A stretch of 64,000 bases of DNA from an uncultured Pseudomonas sp. (GTDB lineage Bacteria > Pseudomonadota > Gammaproteobacteria > Pseudomonadales > Pseudomonadaceae): the NCBI RefSeq assembly GCF_913774235.1, contig NZ_CAJYDW010000017.1, positions 1 through 64,000 of the forward strand, in the 5' to 3' direction. Below, piece by piece: positions 16,794-55,638 of this stretch (position 1 is its first letter; every line of letters starts with the position of its first letter). The notes under the pieces were generated by a model that saw nothing but the letters and a program-made list of their open reading frames with translations, was not told the origin of the DNA and did no database searches. The position numbers were made by a program, and so were the translations under genes.

Positions 16794-16880
16794 TGGTGCC
16801 CAGGAGAAGACTCGAACTTCCACGGTGTTGCCACCGCTAGGACCTGAACCTAGTGCGTCTACCAATTCCGCCACCTGGGC
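16794..16880 (-). tRNA. tRNA-Leu (anticodon CAG), copy 2
   Basis: Read on the minus strand, it begins GCCCAGGTGGCGGAATTGG and ends with an encoded CCA (87 nt including CCA). The acceptor arms GCCCAGG/CCTGGGC pair, the anticodon stem CTAGG/CCTAG frames the loop TTCAGGT with anticodon CAG (reads CUG), and a long variable arm marks it as class II. It is identical over 87 bases to the copy at 16993-17079. A terminator-like stem (16932-16956) lies between the two copies. Confidence 0.95.
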
Positions 16881-16931
16881 CTGCAGCGCGACTTCTGGTC
16901 GCTTCCCATCACCCTTACGGGCTACAGGATT

Positions 16932-16956
16932 AAAAAACCGGCTAGCGCCGGCTTTT
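16932..16956 (-). terminator. Terminator between the two tRNA-Leu genes
   Basis: On the minus strand CCGGC and GCCGG form a stem with a 4-base loop, followed by six T, directly downstream of the first-transcribed tRNA-Leu (16993-17079). It suggests that the second copy depends on read-through or on its own weak promoter. Confidence 0.7.
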
Positions 16957-16992
16957 CGTCGACCGATCTGCAAATCGATCGACTATAATGAG

Positions 16993-17079
16993 TGGTGCCC
17001 AGGAGAAGACTCGAACTTCCACGGTGTTGCCACCGCTAGGACCTGAACCTAGTGCGTCTACCAATTCCGCCACCTGGGC
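16993..17079 (-). tRNA. tRNA-Leu (anticodon CAG), copy 1
   Basis: Same 87-base sequence as 16794-16880, with encoded CCA, paired acceptor arms, anticodon CAG and a long class II variable arm. It is the promoter-proximal copy: a well-spaced sigma-70 promoter sits on the minus strand at 17143-17171. CUG is the dominant leucine codon in GC-rich pseudomonads, so extra copies make sense. Confidence 0.95.
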
Positions 17080-47352: not shown

Positions 47353-48030
47353 ATGCAGCCCGATGCCCCTTCGCTCGCCGCCCATATCGATCATACCCTG
47401 CTCGCCGCCGACGCCAGTCGCGTGCGTATCGCTCAGTTGTGCGCCGAGGCCATGACCCATGGCTTCTATTCGGTGTGCGTGAATTCAGGCCAGGTGCCCT
47501 ATGCGGCCGAGCAACTGGCCGGCAGCCCGGTCAAGGTCTGCGCGGTGGTGGGCTTTCCGCTGGGCGCCGGGCTGAGCGCGGCCAAGGCGTTCGAAGCCGA
47601 GCAGGCCATCGCCGCCGGAGCCGGGGAGATTGACATGGTGCTCAACCTTGGCTGGCTCAAGGATGGCCTGCTGGACGAGGTGTCCGCCGACATCGCCGCG
47701 GTGTTGGCCGCCTGTGGCGCGGTGCCGCTCAAGGTGATCCTGGAGACCGGCCTGCTCGACGACACCCAGAAGCGCCAGGCCTGCCGCATCTGTCGCGACC
47801 TCGGGGTGGCCTTCGTCAAGACCTCGACGGGCTTCGGCCACGGCGGCGCGACCCTGGAAGACGTGCGGCTAATGCGTGAGGAGGTGGGGCCTGAGCTGGG
47901 CGTCAAGGCGTCCGGTGGGGTGCGCGACCGGGCTACGGCCCTGGCCATGCTGGCGGTCGGCGCGACGCGGCTGGGGACCAGTTCGGGGGTGGCCATCGTC
48001 AGTGGGGGCGAGGGTGGGGCGGGGTATTAG
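47353..48030 (+). CDS. deoC: Deoxyribose-phosphate aldolase
   Basis: Class I (Schiff-base) aldolase splitting 2-deoxyribose-5-phosphate to glyceraldehyde-3-phosphate and acetaldehyde. The 225 residues include [43 protein letters not shown] with the Schiff-base Lys, and [24 protein letters not shown] site lies 7 bases before the ATG. A short GC hairpin (about 47291-47311) sits in the leader. It marks the last GC-rich gene before the AT-rich island. Confidence 0.94.
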
Positions 48031-48388
48031 GGCTTCTTTTGCCTGCAAATAGATTGTGTTGAGCGCTCAATAGAGAAAGCTCTCATCTTCAAACTTGCTG
48101 AGGGCAGGAATATTTGCAGTTTGCTCCATACTTCGAGAGTTGCTTGCCTACCCCATACCGCTAGGCCAAGGGTGATCTGTCATGATCTATTAGTCCCGGA
48201 TACTGTTTAAATTTTCCTCGGCAATGGCGGGCGTAACATGCCATGGGATTGATGCGTCCGCTGTTAGTTTTAATGTTGTATCAGCAACCTGCTAATGTCG
48301 TGTAGTGTCTGGGTGACTCACAGCTATTGATAGCTACGTCATAGCTGGTCCATAAATAGGCGCATAGAGTTGACCTTATAAGGTGGTG
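48031..48388. other. AT-rich spacer at the left edge of the arabinose island
   Basis: 358 bases with an abrupt drop in GC just after deoC and no gene that I can support. It contains short palindromes (TTGAGCGCTCAA at about 48058-48069, ACCTTATAAGGT at about 48374-48385) and a T-run near 48411. No integrase, tRNA or direct repeat marking an attachment site was found. Confidence 0.5.
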
Positions 48389-49729
48389 CTATTTAATTAT
48401 AAATAGTTCGCTTTTTTTTAAAAAAGAATTGATTCTTTTGTTTTGTAGTTCTTCAGGTGTGAACGGCTGCCAGCCTATATAAGCTTTGCTGTTCAAAATG
48501 CCGCCTGTACTGTCTCCCTTTAAAAGTATACTCAGAGAAGGGTTCGTCCAAGGCCAGCTGAAGGAATTATACCCATTATAAGGGGCGAGCAGTTTGAATT
48601 CGTCGATGGGGGACCATCCTGAAGCTGCTTGCGCCTCTATCTCAAAACGCTTGATCCAATTGGAAAAGTCGATGGAATGGGTGGTGGATACGAAATAAAG
48701 TGGCGCGAAAGCGATCAGCGATATAGTTGCCGTAAATTTGGTTTTGCTTTGCGGTAATGAGTAATTTCTATATTTTTTATATATGTCAATCGCAAGTGTT
48801 GCAGCGAAAACGTAGCACAAAATTAGACCTGAAGCTGATCTGAATGTGTAGTTCATGCTTGGTGAGTTCCAAGGCTGTTGGCTTGTGATGACTAAAATGA
48901 CGGTTGCTAAAAATAGCAAGATGGTAAGAGGTTTTGCTTGTTGCAGGGGTATTTGGTTTATGAAGTAGGTTGTGGTTAATAAAATTAGAAATATAAATTG
49001 TTTATTTTTTATTGTGCTTAATATGTTCCCTGCTGCTGCTAAATTCGCGGGATCTCTTGGGTATAGCATGGAAGAGGCCGAGACTGTTACAGCGGCTGAG
49101 AAAAGGAAAAGCAAGAAGAATAAAGTGAGTTTGCTTCGTGTGTTAATGCTAGGTGCGGTCTCGTTCAGTTTGATCGCTGCAAGAGCAAAAAGGACTGGTC
49201 CTATGAAGATCATGGCTTCGTAGGATCTTGTAAGGCATATCGCAGACAAAATAAGCAAGATTGAGTCTGTGCGGTTAAGGCTGCCCTTTATTAAAGTTGA
49301 GAAGCAGTAGGCAGATAATGCATATGTTAAATTATACTCACCTATAGCAAAAAAACCAGAGGAAAGATAGGTTGCAGAAAATGCGATAAGTAGGGTCCAG
49401 AAGTGACTCGATTTTAAGTGCTGAGCTAAGGCTAGAAGCCAGACGAGCGCTGGGATTCCTATAACTCCAAAATTATATATGTATATCAGGCTTGTGATGT
49501 CTTTTATATTTAGTTTGATTCCGATTATAATGGGTGTTTGAGTTACTATTTGAGCAAAGGCTCTGGGGTGATCAAAATCCCAGTATGCTTCTCTTGAGAG
49601 GATGTTGTAGAGAAAGAATGATCCGTCGGCATAAAGCCCTTTTACTGCGTAGAGGTCTATTGCAGCGATCAAAAGGATAGCTATGAGGATCGTTTTTTTT
49701 ATCAACACGTCACAATAATGTGGCCTCAT
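48389..49729 (-). CDS. GT-C-like polytopic membrane protein, probable arabinofuranosyltransferase
   Basis: 446 residues with about ten membrane spans and a C-terminal soluble segment (about 350-446). After the first span comes an acidic loop, GLYADGSFFLYNILSREAYW, followed by DFDHPRAF. Such a carboxylate loop is the catalytic hallmark of GT-C enzymes, which use polyprenyl-phosphate sugars on the periplasmic face. Location is the main functional clue: it starts 11 bases after the DprE2-like gene, last in a unit building the lipid-linked D-arabinose donor. The acceptor is unknown. The gene is AT-rich. I do not recognise a closer family, so the function is inferred. Confidence 0.6.
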   Translation of the reverse strand: MRPHYCDVLIKKTILIAILLIAAIDLYAVKGLYADGSFFLYNILSREAYWDFDHPRAFAQIVTQTPIIIGIKLNIKDITSLIYIYNFGVIGIPALVWLLALAQHLKSSHFWTLLIAFSATYLSSGFFAIGEYNLTYALSAYCFSTLIKGSLNRTDSILLILSAICLTRSYEAMIFIGPVLFALAAIKLNETAPSINTRSKLTLFFLLFLFSAAVTVSASSMLYPRDPANLAAAGNILSTIKNKQFIFLILLTTTYFINQIPLQQAKPLTILLFLATVILVITSQQPWNSPSMNYTFRSASGLILCYVFAATLAIDIYKKYRNYSLPQSKTKFTATISLIAFAPLYFVSTTHSIDFSNWIKRFEIEAQAASGWSPIDEFKLLAPYNGYNSFSWPWTNPSLSILLKGDSTGGILNSKAYIGWQPFTPEELQNKRINSFLKKSELFIIK

Positions 49730-49740
49730 TTTAACTTGCT

Positions 49741-50493
49741 CTATATGTTGATTTTATTGAAAATAAAGTTTGGCAGGTGTTGTATGATTAACATAATTAA
49801 TCGCCATTTCTTTGGGGTGTATATGACGGATTTTCCTGACTCCAAGCCTTCGATAATCTGTTTTGCTACATCTTCAGCGGACGCTAGTTTGGCGCCTTTG
49901 TCTTTTAGGTGGGCTGTCATTGGTGTATCTGTTGGGCCAGGGTTGATTAATATCACTTTCACCCCTGTGCTTGCAAAGCGGTGCTGCATTCCTTGAGCAT
50001 AGCGAGTGACCAATCCTTTGGCTGCTCCATATATGTAATTAGATTTGCGTCCCCGCTCGCCTGCCACGGAGCTTATTAAGGCAATAGTACCGTAGGCAGT
50101 TTTTTCCATCTCTTTAGCAAAGGCTTCTGCGTAAAGGACAGGTGATAGCCCATTGATTTCTAGTGCACTACGGCAAACCTTAAGATCATATTGGCATTCG
50201 GTTTGGTCAGGAAGCGACCCATGCGCGATCAATACGATATCTATTCGGCCTGACTGTGCAATATTTTCAGCTGTAGCAGTTATGGCTACTGAATCCAAAA
50301 AATCTGCTTTGACGACTTGGATCTCTGATTCTGGACAGCGTACCCGAAGATCCTTTGCTACTCGTTCGACGCGTTGCACGTCGCGTCCAACCAAAATAAG
50401 GTCAAGGTGCTGTTTTTCCAGCCATAGCCTAGCGCATTGTTCGGCGATGGCTGAGGTGGCACCAATAATTACGATTTTTTTCTTGCTGATCAT
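49741..50493 (-). CDS. DprE2-like short-chain dehydrogenase (decaprenylphosphoryl-ribose epimerase subunit)
   Basis: NAD(H)-dependent SDR of 250 residues. The cofactor loop is IVIIGATSAIAEQCA, the catalytic Ser is in LISSVAGERGR and the Tyr155/Lys159 pair in YGAAKG. In mycobacteria DprE2 reduces the 2-keto intermediate made by DprE1, completing inversion of ribose to arabinose on the lipid carrier. The start codon follows the DprE1-like stop with no gap (TAAATG), and the C-terminus is hydrophobic and basic (KKWRLIMLIIQHLPNF), suggesting membrane contact, as for DprE2. Assignment rests on both sequence and neighbours. Confidence 0.82.
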   Translation of the reverse strand: MISKKKIVIIGATSAIAEQCARLWLEKQHLDLILVGRDVQRVERVAKDLRVRCPESEIQVVKADFLDSVAITATAENIAQSGRIDIVLIAHGSLPDQTECQYDLKVCRSALEINGLSPVLYAEAFAKEMEKTAYGTIALISSVAGERGRKSNYIYGAAKGLVTRYAQGMQHRFASTGVKVILINPGPTDTPMTAHLKDKGAKLASAEDVAKQIIEGLESGKSVIYTPKKWRLIMLIIQHLPNFIFNKINI

Positions 50494-51795
50494 TTAGCTT
50501 CCCATTAGGCGGCGCGATAGGCTGGAGCTTATGCCACTGTCACGATATCTCTTGAATTCATCCAGGCGAGGAAAGCCTGCCTCAAAAAGCTCCCTAGGCA
50601 TTCGAGCATCTTTTGCTGGATAAATACGGCCATTAGCTTCACGCACAATGGCGTCTAAGCGATCAAATAGTTTATGCGTTATCCCTCCAAGATTCGGGAA
50701 GTCCATTGCTAATGTTACCCCCGGCTGTGGGAAACTCAGCATGCCTAGTGGTTGGCGGTCACCAAAGGTCTTTAAAACAGCTAGGAAAGAACCACTCATT
50801 GATCGTGCAATTTCCTTTAACATGGCCTGCGTTGCATCTTTACCTATGTCTCGAGGCACAACGCTTTGATATTGAAAGAATCCCTTTGGGCCATACAGTC
50901 GGTTCCATTGCAGAAGATTGTCTAGCGGGTAGAAAAATTGCTCATAATACGTAATGGATGTCCCTGCTTGTCTTTTTTTGAGATGATAATACATTGTATT
51001 GAAAGGACGTAGTGATAGCCTGTTGATTAAGGATATGGGGGGTACTATAGGTATAGTTATGCTGCGCTTTTTAGGAATTGGGCGTTCGACTATTCCAGTG
51101 TGATTTCCACGCATGAACAGGCCGCGACCATTGCTGCCACTGATACAGTCTATCCACGATACGGTATATTCCCATCCTGCTTCGGATTCATCTGCGAGAT
51201 GGAAAAAATCATCTAGGTTTGAATAGGGGATTGTCTCCGTATGCAGCCAGGGACTGCCTACCTTCCTTAACTGAATTTCAGCTTGAGTGATTATACCGGT
51301 AAGGCCCATGCCGCCGATAGTGGAAGCAAACCAGTCCGGTCGTTCAGTCGGGCTGCATTGGATAACTTCACCGTCGGTTCGGATTAAAGAAAGGCTTTTT
51401 AAATGATCGCCAAAAGAACCTACGGCATGATGATTTTTGCCGTGTACGTCATTGGCAATCGCTCCGCCTACGGTTACCAGCTGAGTACCTGGCGTGACGG
51501 GTAAAATCCAGCCGCGTGGAATAGCAAATAGCTGTATGTCTCGTAATGTGACACCGGCCTCGCATACAATGCGCCCATTTTTTTCATCGAAACCGATGAG
51601 GTGGTTTAGGCCAGTTGTAACCCAAAGCGTACCCTCTGGGTTTAAACAAACATCGCCGTAGCTGCGCCCCATGCCATGAGCTACACCTGGGTGAGTTGTA
51701 TGGCAAACGAGTTCTTTAGTCGTAAATGGGTCGCTTAGTCTTACTATGCGATGAGGGGACGCATTCAGTCGTCCCCAAGAGCTAGCTATATTCAT
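50494..51795 (-). CDS. DprE1-like FAD-dependent decaprenylphosphoryl-ribose 2'-oxidase
   Basis: VAO-fold flavoprotein of 433 residues. FAD motifs GMGRSYGDVCLN, VTPGTQLVTVGGAIANDVHGKNHH and TIGGMGLTGIITQAE match DprE1. The catalytic Lys of the family is present (Lys395, in IYPAKDARMP). Where mycobacterial DprE1 has the cysteine trapped by benzothiazinones (PGWNICVDFP), this protein reads PGVTLAMDFP, with Ala363. It oxidises lipid-linked ribose at C2, before the DprE2-like partner reduces it. The start overlaps the GtrA gene by 4 bases. Confidence 0.86.
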   Translation of the reverse strand: MNIASSWGRLNASPHRIVRLSDPFTTKELVCHTTHPGVAHGMGRSYGDVCLNPEGTLWVTTGLNHLIGFDEKNGRIVCEAGVTLRDIQLFAIPRGWILPVTPGTQLVTVGGAIANDVHGKNHHAVGSFGDHLKSLSLIRTDGEVIQCSPTERPDWFASTIGGMGLTGIITQAEIQLRKVGSPWLHTETIPYSNLDDFFHLADESEAGWEYTVSWIDCISGSNGRGLFMRGNHTGIVERPIPKKRSITIPIVPPISLINRLSLRPFNTMYYHLKKRQAGTSITYYEQFFYPLDNLLQWNRLYGPKGFFQYQSVVPRDIGKDATQAMLKEIARSMSGSFLAVLKTFGDRQPLGMLSFPQPGVTLAMDFPNLGGITHKLFDRLDAIVREANGRIYPAKDARMPRELFEAGFPRLDEFKRYRDSGISSSLSRRLMGS

Positions 51796-52202
51796 ATGGA
51801 GTTCTTGCAGAAGACGAACCGTTTGTCTAGGTGGTACTTGATAAAATAGCCTATTGCAAGCCCAATAATGCCGCCAAAATAGCGCATTTTCTTGGACTCG
51901 AAGATCAAGTGGAAGCCATACTCAAAGCCCCAAAATATCATGGTTGTCACCAGTCCCATGATGGTGTATAGAGCAAAAAGTTGAGTGTCATGAGATGTGT
52001 TGAGTGTCTTGAATTTAAAAATATATCGCTTATCAAGAATGTACTTGACAAGGAGGCCTATTGATGTTCCAAAAAAAATCGACGATGGAAGCTGAAGAGC
52101 GCCGCTGTACATGCGGGTGACTAGCTCTTGAGCGCCGATATTTGCTGCAGTCGAGATTAATGCGAAAATGGCATAGCTGATAGCCAACCTAGTTGTAGAC
52201 AT
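51792..52202 (-). CDS. GtrA-family small membrane protein
   Basis: 136 residues with four predicted spans; typical of GtrA: an early TRLAISYAIFALISTAANIG, a middle GTSIGLLVKYILDKRYIF and a late GLAIGYFIKYHLDKRFVF, with the repeated [KR]Y-x-LDKR-[YF]-[IV]-F loops. In mycobacteria the equivalent gene (Rv3789) lies in the arabinan cluster; it was proposed to flip decaprenyl-phosphoryl-arabinose or to recruit other enzymes. The ATG at 52202 fits the fold; an ATG at 52235 would add 11 residues and overlap the opposite gene's start. First gene of its unit. Confidence 0.82.
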   Translation of the reverse strand: MSTTRLAISYAIFALISTAANIGAQELVTRMYSGALQLPSSIFFGTSIGLLVKYILDKRYIFKFKTLNTSHDTQLFALYTIMGLVTTMIFWGFEYGFHLIFESKKMRYFGGIIGLAIGYFIKYHLDKRFVFCKNSI

Positions 52203-52229
52203 TGATGATATCACTGAGGTCAAAGAAAG

Positions 52230-53114
52230 ATGCATGATACCGTAATGCGGCGCTCGCTTCTAGCGCAGGTGCTAGGGCTAGTCAAGTTGATGCGGCCCAA
52301 GCAGTGGGTAAAGAACGGTTTTGTTCTGGCGCCATTAGTTTTTGCCGGCTTTTTTTTGGATGCTAGAGCCGTTGGTCACGCGTTGTCGGCAATGGTTCTA
52401 TTTTGTGTTGCTTCGTCGGCAACATATGTTGTTAACGATATGCACGATATCGAGCGAGATCGTCGACATCCAAAAAAATCAAAAACCCGGCCTTTGGCGA
52501 GTGGGATTGTTTCTAAATTCGCTGCTACGATTTTGCTCGTGGTGTTATATGGCGTTTTGGTACTGGGCTGGTTTGTTGCTCCGAAAGTTATAGGTGTTAT
52601 TGCTTTCTACTTGATTTTGAATGTCGGTTACACTTTTGTGTTCAAGCATCAGCCAGTGGTCGATATATTTGTCATTGCTATAGGCTTTGTGTTGCGCGTT
52701 TATGCGGGTGCCATGGCATTGGATGTTCCTGTTTCCTCTTGGATGTTTATCACTACCCTTTGTTTGGCTTTGTATCTGGCCGCCGTGAAGCGTCGCCAGG
52801 AACTCAGTAAGAGTGGTAGTGAAGGGCGTCAGGTGCTTGAGAAATACTCCGCATCACTCGTGGATCGCTATGCGGAAATGTCAGCAACTGGAGCATTACT
52901 TTTTTATAGCATGTTCGTAATGTCTGCCAAGCCTGAATTGGTGGTTACGATTCCGCTGGTTTTGTTTGGCTTATTCCGTTATTGGTTCGTAGTAGAGGCT
53001 CTTGATGGTGGTGAGTCGCCTACAGATGCGCTGTTCGCTGACTGGCAGCTATTACTTACAGTTGTGCTTTGGGTGGTTGCATGTGGTTGGATGCTTTGGC
53101 CGGTGCAGGGGTAA
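52230..53114 (+). CDS. UbiA-type polyprenyl-phosphate phosphoribosyltransferase
   Basis: Membrane prenyltransferase-fold enzyme of 294 residues with about eight spans. LMRPKQWVKNGFVLAPLVF near the start and the metal-binding NDMHDIERDRRHPKKSKTRP (Asn69, Asp70, Asp73, Asp77) are the marks of the Rv3806c group, which moves 5-phosphoribose from PRPP to a polyprenyl phosphate, rather than of UbiA proper. This is the committed step toward lipid-linked D-arabinose. Start 52230 has GAGG upstream; an inner ATG at 52245 is possible. Two bases separate it from the next gene. Confidence 0.85.
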   Translation: MHDTVMRRSLLAQVLGLVKLMRPKQWVKNGFVLAPLVFAGFFLDARAVGHALSAMVLFCVASSATYVVNDMHDIERDRRHPKKSKTRPLASGIVSKFAATILLVVLYGVLVLGWFVAPKVIGVIAFYLILNVGYTFVFKHQPVVDIFVIAIGFVLRVYAGAMALDVPVSSWMFITTLCLALYLAAVKRRQELSKSGSEGRQVLEKYSASLVDRYAEMSATGALLFYSMFVMSAKPELVVTIPLVLFGLFRYWFVVEALDGGESPTDALFADWQLLLTVVLWVVACGWMLWPVQG

Positions 53115-53116
53115 TC

Positions 53117-53533
53117 ATGGTCATCTCTTATGCTCTTACACCATTTTTGGCATGGCTTGTTGCTGGAACGTCAAAATTTATTATCAATAGTTTCAAGGCC
53201 AAGCAACTTGCTTTTGGGCTAGTCGGCTATGGCGGGTTGCCGAGTAATCACAGTGCGATAGTAAGTAGCATGGCCGCGCTTATCGCTTTCAAGGAGGGCA
53301 TTGGGAGTCCTTCCTTTGGTGTCGCTATTGCGCTGGCTTTTATTGTTATTCTTGATGCTGCCAGTCTTCGTCGGCAAATAGGAAGGCAGGCTGTTATTCT
53401 TAACAGGCTGGCGGCTGGATCCTCTGGTTACCGGCCGGTGCGTGAACGTATGGGTCACACTCGAGTAGAAATTGCTGCTGGGGTCATGGTCGGTGTCTTA
53501 GTTGCTATGGCTGTCAGTAAATATTTGAGTTGA
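53117..53533 (+). CDS. Divergent PAP2 (DUF212) family protein, putative phosphatase
   Basis: Small membrane protein of 138 residues. YGGLPSNHSA (Ser43, Asn44, His45), the ILDAASLRRQIGRQAVILN stretch and RERMGHTRVE are the DUF212 signature; the two His-containing motifs resemble PAP2 phosphatase sites. Directly after the phosphoribosyltransferase, it is placed to remove the 5-phosphate of lipid-linked phosphoribose, the job assigned to a normal PAP2 protein (Rv3807c) in mycobacteria. The ATG at 53117 follows GCAGGGG; an ATG at 53081 inside the previous gene is less likely. The AT-rich spacer 53534-53706 holds nothing clear. Confidence 0.75.
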   Translation: MVISYALTPFLAWLVAGTSKFIINSFKAKQLAFGLVGYGGLPSNHSAIVSSMAALIAFKEGIGSPSFGVAIALAFIVILDAASLRRQIGRQAVILNRLAAGSSGYRPVRERMGHTRVEIAAGVMVGVLVAMAVSKYLS

Positions 53534-53706
53534 TAGTTGCGTTGCACGATGGTTCTCCGGTATTGGTGGTTGGTCGATGAGTACCTATGCCCTGCTGTTC
53601 CCTATTATATAGTTATCAGTCGATATTGATGCGGTTGATCAATAATTATTAAGTCTTGCTCCGAGTTTATTTTCGCTGGACTTTTATATTGCTCATCAAT
53701 AAAGGC

Positions 53707-54438
53707 TTACTCTGATCCTTGGCTGTACAGCTTGGAATCGCTGAAGTCCCCCGGCGCCAGTACCTCGCCGACCAGGATCAGCGCGGTGCGGCGGAAGTCC
53801 TTGTCGCGGGCCCGTTCGACGATGTCGGCCAGGGTGCCCTGGACGCTGTCCTGGTCCGGCCAGCTGGCGCGGTGGACGATGGCCACCGGGCAGACGGGGC
53901 CGTAGTACGGCAGCAGGTCGGCGACGATGCGCTCCAGCTGGCCCACGCCGAGATGGATGGCCAGGGTGGCGCGGTGGCGGGCCAGGTCGGCCAGGGCCTC
54001 GCCCTCCGGCATGGCGGTACGGCTGGCGTAGCGGGTGAGGATCACTGTCTGGCTGACCCCCGGCAGGGTCAGTTCGCAACCCAGCAGCGCGGCGCAGGCG
54101 GCGGTGGCGGTCACCCCGGGGACGATCTCGTAGGGAATGCCCAGCGCCTGCAGGCGGCGGATCTGCTCGCCGATGGCGCCGTACAGCGAGGGATCGCCGG
54201 AGTGCACCCGGGCCACGTCCTGCCCGCGGGCATGGGCGGCGGCCAGGTGGCCGACGATGGTGTCGAGATCCAGGCTGGCGGTGTCGATCACCGTCTCGGC
54301 GCTATGACCTTCCAGCACCGCGGGCGGCACCAGGGAGCCGGCATAGAGGATCACCGGGCACTGGCGGATCAGCCGCTGGCCCTTGACGGTGATGAGGTCG
54401 GGATCGCCGGGACCGGCGCCGATGAAATGGACGGTCAT
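53707..54438 (-). CDS. cobM: Precorrin-4 C(11)-methyltransferase
   Basis: SAM-dependent methylase of the cobalamin pathway, 243 residues. The uroporphyrinogen-methylase fold is clear: VHFIGAGPGDPDLITVKGQRL, VILYAGSLVPPAVL, VARVHSGDPSLYGAIGEQ and IVPGVTATAACAALLG. GC content returns to the genome norm here, so it defines the right edge of the AT-rich island. It overlaps cobK by 4 bases. Confidence 0.92.
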   Translation of the reverse strand: MTVHFIGAGPGDPDLITVKGQRLIRQCPVILYAGSLVPPAVLEGHSAETVIDTASLDLDTIVGHLAAAHARGQDVARVHSGDPSLYGAIGEQIRRLQALGIPYEIVPGVTATAACAALLGCELTLPGVSQTVILTRYASRTAMPEGEALADLARHRATLAIHLGVGQLERIVADLLPYYGPVCPVAIVHRASWPDQDSVQGTLADIVERARDKDFRRTALILVGEVLAPGDFSDSKLYSQGSE

Positions 54439-55157: not shown

Positions 55158-55638
55158 CGGGTTGCTTCCAGCTGGGCGCCGTGGGTTTGGTCAGGCATGG
55201 CGCGCCCTCACCCCGGCCCCTCTCCCCGAGGGAGAGGGGAGGAAAAGCGGTGCCTGGAGTCGAGTCGGGGAGCAGGACGGCTAGTCTCCCTGTAGAGCAG
55301 AATAGGAGGCGTCAGTCCGGACGCCAGACTTCCACCCCACCACCTAGCCGCCCTCTCTCCCCTGTGGGGAGAGGGGGCAAGGAGCAGCTCAGAGTCTTCA
55401 AGGATGAAAGGGGCACACCCAACCACCCCCCTTCCCCCGTGGGGAGGGGGCAGGGGTAAGGAGGCAGTGCGCGGCTCAGAGTCTTCAAGGATGGAAGGGA
55501 CACACCCAACCGCCCCCTCTCCCCCGCGGGGAGAGGGTTGGGGTGAGGGGGCAAGGCGCTGCGTACAGTCTGCACGTATGGAAGGGACACACCCGATCAC
55601 CCTCTCTTCCCTCGGGGAGCGGCGACCAAGATCAGCAC
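55158..55638. repeat. cobK-cobL spacer: GC-rich palindromes and an 87-bp tandem array
   Basis: 481 bases without a gene. Copies of the CCCTCACCCC-type palindrome seen at 29.8 and 39.1 kb occur at about 55205-55240, 55350-55378, 55428-55456, 55519-55550 and 55598-55622. From 55388 to 55625 there are three head-to-tail units: ATG-[AG]-AAGGG-[GA]-CACACCC appears at 55404, 55491 and 55578, exactly 87 bases apart, each followed by one palindrome. The third unit is more diverged at its start. Confidence 0.8.

Follow-up and report, generated by a model that had tools for sequence, protein, structure and literature searches.

A putatively acquired D-arabinofuranose donor cassette in an uncultured Pseudomonas, with the type IV pilin as its likely main acceptor

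Six adjacent genes in a 64,000-nucleotide stretch of an uncultured Pseudomonas sp. (contig NZ_CAJYDW010000017.1 of assembly GCF_913774235.1, positions 1 to 64,000; hereafter the window) appear to specify the synthesis of lipid-linked D-arabinofuranose (D-Araf). We consider it likely that they form an acquired donor cassette of the kind found in P. paraeruginosa PA7, the TfpW system, and that the main acceptor of the sugar is the type IV pilin. This reading is built on gene content, homology, gene order, insertion and co-occurrence as observed in this analysis, together with a predicted GT-C (C-type glycosyltransferase) fold for a pilin-linked protein encoded elsewhere in the same genome. Judged from these sequences, the genome carries a further example of the PA7-type system for pilin arabinosylation.

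An earlier note on this DNA had proposed a D-Araf donor pathway encoded by six adjacent genes. All six open reading frames (ORFs) were recovered intact, in the same positions and orientations, and family searches back five of the six; family and PDB matches for the UbiA-, DprE1- and DprE2-like proteins support the predicted pathway. It would begin with a UbiA-type polyprenyl-phosphate 5-phosphoribosyltransferase (PPPRS; 52230-53114, plus strand; PF01040), which is expected to transfer phosphoribose from phosphoribosyl pyrophosphate to polyprenyl phosphate. This protein scores 223 bits against the NCBIfam model PRK12324 for decaprenyl-phosphate phosphoribosyltransferase, just under the cut-off of 234. 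Its best PDB match by sequence is the Rv3806c-type synthase 8j8j (1.3e-37, residues 12-286), and in that alignment it retains the conserved acidic stretch ND..D...D..HP.K..RP. The second step, removal of the 5-phosphate, would fall to a DUF212 membrane protein (53069-53533, plus strand; PF02681 'Divergent PAP2 family', 110 bits, cut-off 26.5), a putative phosphatase by family and position, whose listed start, TTG, is doubtful. Epimerization at C2, giving polyprenyl-phosphoryl D-arabinofuranose, would then be accomplished by a DprE1-like FAD oxidase (E1; 50494-51795, minus strand; PF01565) in the third step and a DprE2-like short-chain reductase (E2; 49741-50493, minus strand; PF00106) in the fourth. 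E1 scores 359 bits on the NCBIfam DprE1 model (cut-off 500) and has as its best PDB match by sequence DprE1 (5e-75, near full-length). It retains the residues aligned with DprE1 Tyr60, His132 and Lys418 and has alanine at the Cys387 position, all four of which we take to be functional residues of DprE1. E2 fits PRK07102 best (254 bits, cut-off 267), with DprE2 as the second-best model (164 bits, cut-off 250); its best PDB match by sequence is DprE2 (21gq_C, 4e-28). Where the earlier note had named best matches of the UbiA-like protein and the flavoprotein to unrelated pathways as evidence against its proposal, the matches found are to the Rv3806c-type synthase and to DprE1. A GtrA-family membrane protein (51792-52235, minus strand; PF04138; NCBIfam gtrA_1, 184.7 bits, cut-off 50) is the proposed flippase, helping lipid-linked D-Araf across the membrane to periplasmic GT-C enzymes that would use it. 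The sixth gene (48389-49729, minus strand) encodes a 446-residue polytopic membrane protein, by topology and position a possible GT-C enzyme of unassigned acceptor. The GtrA and UbiA genes, which lie on opposite strands, overlap by six bases (52230-52235) at their listed starts, and one start or both are probably located further in; the likelier start for at least one of the two is an internal Met, GtrA residue 12 or UbiA residue 6.

The candidate for the transfer to pilin is encoded outside the window. On contig C19 of the same genome (C19:377813-381745, corresponding to L105:5814-9746), pilA is directly followed by the gene of a 634-residue TfpW homologue, and then by that of a 500-residue membrane protein; both of these genes have a GC content of 0.42. 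The 634-residue protein shares 31% identity over 585 residues (6e-71) with the PA7 protein encoded after pilA and has, by VIA-align 2, a predicted GT-C fold. A search of the PDB sequences with the TfpW-family profile returned no match. Going by synteny, homology to TfpW and the co-occurrence described below, the protein would transfer D-Araf to the pilin. In all 11 congeners inspected pilA is followed by different genes or by none, and the twelfth, G001, has a TfpW homologue; therefore, the position is a variable cassette site. As for the 500-residue protein, it belongs to no Pfam family, matches NCBIfam weakly (E 0.0039), has no meaningful PDB match and shows no profile similarity to the TfpW family. 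One stretch of it, which contains a DDAYIT motif, weakly resembles the AftB-like family by profile (probability 6%, E 0.006). The AftB-like profile itself found no match in the genome (best E 0.65).

The distribution of TfpW homologues ties them to the donor pathway. We compared the 634-residue protein with 398 genomes of the family at E 0.001, counting DprE1-like proteins at E 1e-60. Thirteen genomes matched, eight strongly (6.2e-67 or lower) and five weakly (1.5e-7 to 4.8e-5). DprE1-like proteins, present in 54 of the 398 genomes, occur in all eight with strong matches (hypergeometric 7e-8, or 5e-7 without the genome studied here, kinship ignored) and in one of the five with weak matches. 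The eight span six genera, our genome included, and in every one the homologue follows pilA; in G001, G031, G104 and G371 the UbiA, E1 and E2 genes stand inside the pilin locus. Since E1 of the other seven is only 43-67% identical to that of the window, the association points to a functional tie rather than to one inherited block. A second membrane protein follows in the pilin loci of G031, G104 and G371, and the G031 copy matches the arabinosyltransferase AftB (3.7e-12). A split system in another pseudomonad, and a TfpW-type GT-C that, where strongly matched in the 398 genomes, always comes with DprE1, would allow arabinosylated pili to be predicted from genomes by a simple rule. According to PMC12369383 and PMC11841053, pilin arabinosylation protects P. 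paraeruginosa against pilus phages.

Comparison with PA7 bears directly on the acceptor. We infer that genome G161 is PA7, and its homologue of the 634-residue protein TfpW itself; the positions of pilA-TfpW and DprE1 there fit the locus numbers in PMC12369383. The placement of G161 in the same family agrees with the pseudomonad host assumed earlier. According to the same paper, PA7 keeps its D-Araf cluster (PSPA7_6245-6251, island RGP80) far from pilA-tfpW (PSPA7_5161-5160). The window cassette has the PA7 gene order, the copies being 69% (DUF212), 71% (UbiA), 61% (GtrA), 43% (E1) and 41% (E2) identical. In PA7 the cassette continues after E2 with a PMT_2 membrane protein and then an acyltransferase; this brings the total to seven genes, as published for PSPA7_6245-6251. 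Our genome thus resembles the PA7/Pa5196 system in its five-gene divergent cassette with an extra membrane protein after DprE2, and in its separate pilA with the TfpW homologue straight behind it. The earlier note was therefore right to relate the cassette to the TfpW system. Its further argument, that the absence of a pilin or tfpW nearby and the presence of an in-cluster transferase indicate another acceptor, must be corrected. PA7 is likewise split and likewise carries a membrane protein within the cluster, so both features belong to the known pilin system; moreover, the genome studied here does have a pilin and a TfpW homologue, on C19, beyond the DNA on which the earlier note was based. 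A different target for the cassette is therefore not favoured.

Several discrepancies with PA7 should be mentioned. The window E1 and E2 share only 41-43% identity with those of PA7. The in-cluster protein of PA7 is a 559-residue PMT_2 protein, whereas that of the window has 446 residues, no family and no BLAST similarity to it. The window island has neither an acyltransferase nor an AftB-like gene, and is inserted, unlike that of PA7, between deoC and cobM. Where PA7 has a gene for a 245-residue, TfpX-sized protein, our genome has the 500-residue membrane protein; in the C19 locus, to which this search was confined, no TfpX-type gene follows the TfpW homologue, and the 500-residue protein has no BLAST similarity to the 245-residue one. 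TfpX after TfpW, although present in PA7, is not a defining feature of the system. In G161 an AftB-like protein (1e-29) is encoded on the other strand just beyond the seven cassette genes (L151:13618-15246).

The predicted chemical steps are those of the mycobacterial arabinan donor pathway (Rv3806c, Rv3807c, DprE1, DprE2, Rv3789, Emb/Aft), with which the UbiA, DprE1 and DprE2 proteins are homologous. Unlike in mycobacteria, the phosphatase candidate DUF212 is of the divergent PAP2 family, the genome has no AftB-like match by profile (Emb proteins were not searched for), and the carrier is presumably undecaprenyl phosphate. The earlier note had suggested this carrier, and PMC11127046 expects the same for PA7, though it is not established there. 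The same paper describes the three-component pentofuranose systems of Citrobacter youngae O1 and O2, which likewise combine a polyprenyl phosphoribose synthase, a flippase and a GT-C, with an epimerase in O2. In these systems the phosphatase is a HAD domain, the flippase is of the MATE type and the product goes to O-antigen, as opposed to DUF212 and GtrA with a product that probably goes to pilin. In the literature searched, which took in PMC12369383, PMC11841053, PMC11127046 and PMC9239064 but lacked most subscription papers, the only pseudomonads named with the pathway are P. aeruginosa/paraeruginosa and P. syringae.

The cassette in the window appears to be an acquired one. It fills an island of about 5.7 kb (48034-53707) between the convergent ends of deoC (ending at 48030) and cobM (53707-54438, minus strand). 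The island is AT-rich, as had been noted: GC per kb is 0.41-0.47 (0.54 in the last, mixed kb) versus 0.61-0.73 elsewhere in the window, and GC3 (GC at third codon positions) is 0.42-0.51 in the six genes, 0.858 in deoC and 0.906 in cobM. The deoC-cobM gap was compared in 9 of 12 congeners, namely those left after the three whose cobM is most distant were set aside; the aligned ends are 93-159 bp apart in eight, and the ninth (G005) has 2.8 kb of other DNA. This different insert (L200:8066-10862), with an ORF that resembles a piece of an IS110-type transposase, makes the gap a possible hot spot for insertions. At least 584 relatives of E1 were confirmed, and their scattered distribution takes in beta-, gamma- and alphaproteobacteria, actinobacteria and other groups. 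Among the loci of the best 80 of those listed (50-75% identity), the complete five-gene layout recurs in 16; UbiA and E1 are divergent in 38 and on the same strand in 36, with no UbiA in 6, misses from short contigs being counted in. The core of five genes would thus seem to be mobile and widespread. On plasmids, E1 relatives occur in 60 of 72,556 records, all below 60% identity; 34 of these are Rhizobium.

A number of points weigh against the proposed assignment to pilin. The DprE1, DprE2 and UbiA proteins all score under the NCBIfam curated equivalog cut-offs. The DprE1 cut-off was reached in 0 of 95 searched genomes (our own included) and in 1 of 14 control genomes, and therefore seems to be set for another DprE1 group. 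For the 634-residue model, Foldseek by itself found nothing significant and ranked TPR proteins first; the pilin, which in a PA7-type system would be of group IV, is only about 40% identical to that of PA7, and six PMT_2 places lie elsewhere in the genome. The cassette (C17) and the pilin locus (C19) are on separate contigs and are linked by homology, composition and co-occurrence; low GC, however, is common in surface-glycan genes, which makes shared composition weak evidence of shared origin, and the eight strong genomes were counted without correction for kinship. A strong TfpW homologue is absent from 46 of the 54 genomes with DprE1; thus possession of the cassette is not enough to predict that pilin is modified, and other targets of the pathway probably exist in the family. 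The enzyme activities, carrier lipid, flippase role, pilin sugar and any part played by the 446- and 500-residue proteins are predictions.

The 446-residue protein is an orphan and the one puzzling part of the cassette. Its sequence has no match in Pfam (at E 0.01), in NCBIfam (nothing below E 0.07) or in the PDB (up to E 5). By profile comparison it is related neither to the TfpW or AftB-like families nor to the 500-residue protein, so that a second acceptor is conceivable. The GT-C-like label, given for topology and position, is a possible one. No relative was found in the viral contigs and plasmids searched, and no ORF in the 80 E1-relative loci matched it, although 20 of these loci have a same-strand polytopic ORF (374-712 residues) that begins no more than 150 bp after E2. 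In 369 genomes of the class it has one distant homologue (G464, 29%, E 2e-16). Among the 398 family genomes the only match besides our own genome was marginal (G295, E 5e-4) and was dropped, with just 15% identity when aligned; a match in G652, short and with internal stops, was also dropped. An AlphaFold2 model made with its single usable homologue was discarded as unusable (pLDDT 35).

These facts bear on the possibility that, instead of the pilin route or in addition to it, D-Araf is passed by the 446-residue protein to O-antigen, capsule or some other molecule of the surface. We take this possibility seriously while doubting it. The gene follows E2 on the same strand of the island, the many DprE1 genomes that have no strong TfpW homologue fit such a role, and PMC11127046 places homologues of DprE1/E2 in systems that are candidates for making polysaccharides with Araf. 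On the other hand, no GT-C assignment could be obtained, PA7 has a GT-C-family (PMT_2) protein in its cluster and yet D-Araf is reported on its pilin, and the G464 homologue has no D-Araf genes adjoining it in the stretch examined, though a DprE1-like gene lies elsewhere in that genome. Pilin chain extension, capping or transfer to a second acceptor are conceivable roles for the 446- and 500-residue proteins. A more specific and rather speculative version is that the 446-residue protein is the first of a separate GT-C family and has an acceptor of its own. One pool of lipid-linked D-Araf would then supply two surface targets in the same cell, with the C19 TfpW homologue serving pilin and the in-cluster enzyme serving a second glycan or protein. 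If so, a mobile five-gene donor cassette with exchangeable transferases would be a general proteobacterial route to altered surface chemistry.

That the TfpW homologue takes another donor, the cassette being unrelated to pilin, seems unlikely. Its identity to TfpW is low, and weak TfpW-family relatives also follow pilins in genomes outside the DprE1 carriers (four of the five; pilin motif in 4/5 loci). In the 398 genomes, however, the strong homologues never occur apart from DprE1, and in four genomes the D-Araf genes lie in the pilin locus itself. We regard it as very improbable that the cassette is silent or decaying and yields no product: its base composition is far from the host's, and a promoter scan found fewer sites than shuffles did (6 versus a mean of 10.4), but the scan covered one promoter type, and the six frames and the motifs are preserved.

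Other D-Araf clusters contain a related 323-337-residue membrane protein (34-60% mutual identity; L164:6186-7199, L165:7436-8407, L158:9882-10889, L159:10701-11687), which may be an alternative flippase, since three of the four clusters show no GtrA match. In Lampropedia hyalina an AftB-like protein (L074:8013-9965; 8e-135 to the pilin-locus AftB-like profile) is encoded within the D-Araf cassette, between GtrA and E1. Elsewhere in the window, a tandem pair of tRNA-Leu (cag) genes occupies 16794-17079 on the minus strand, and short stretches of 55203-55563 also match other sites in two congener loci (L193, L194), as a small dispersed repeat would.

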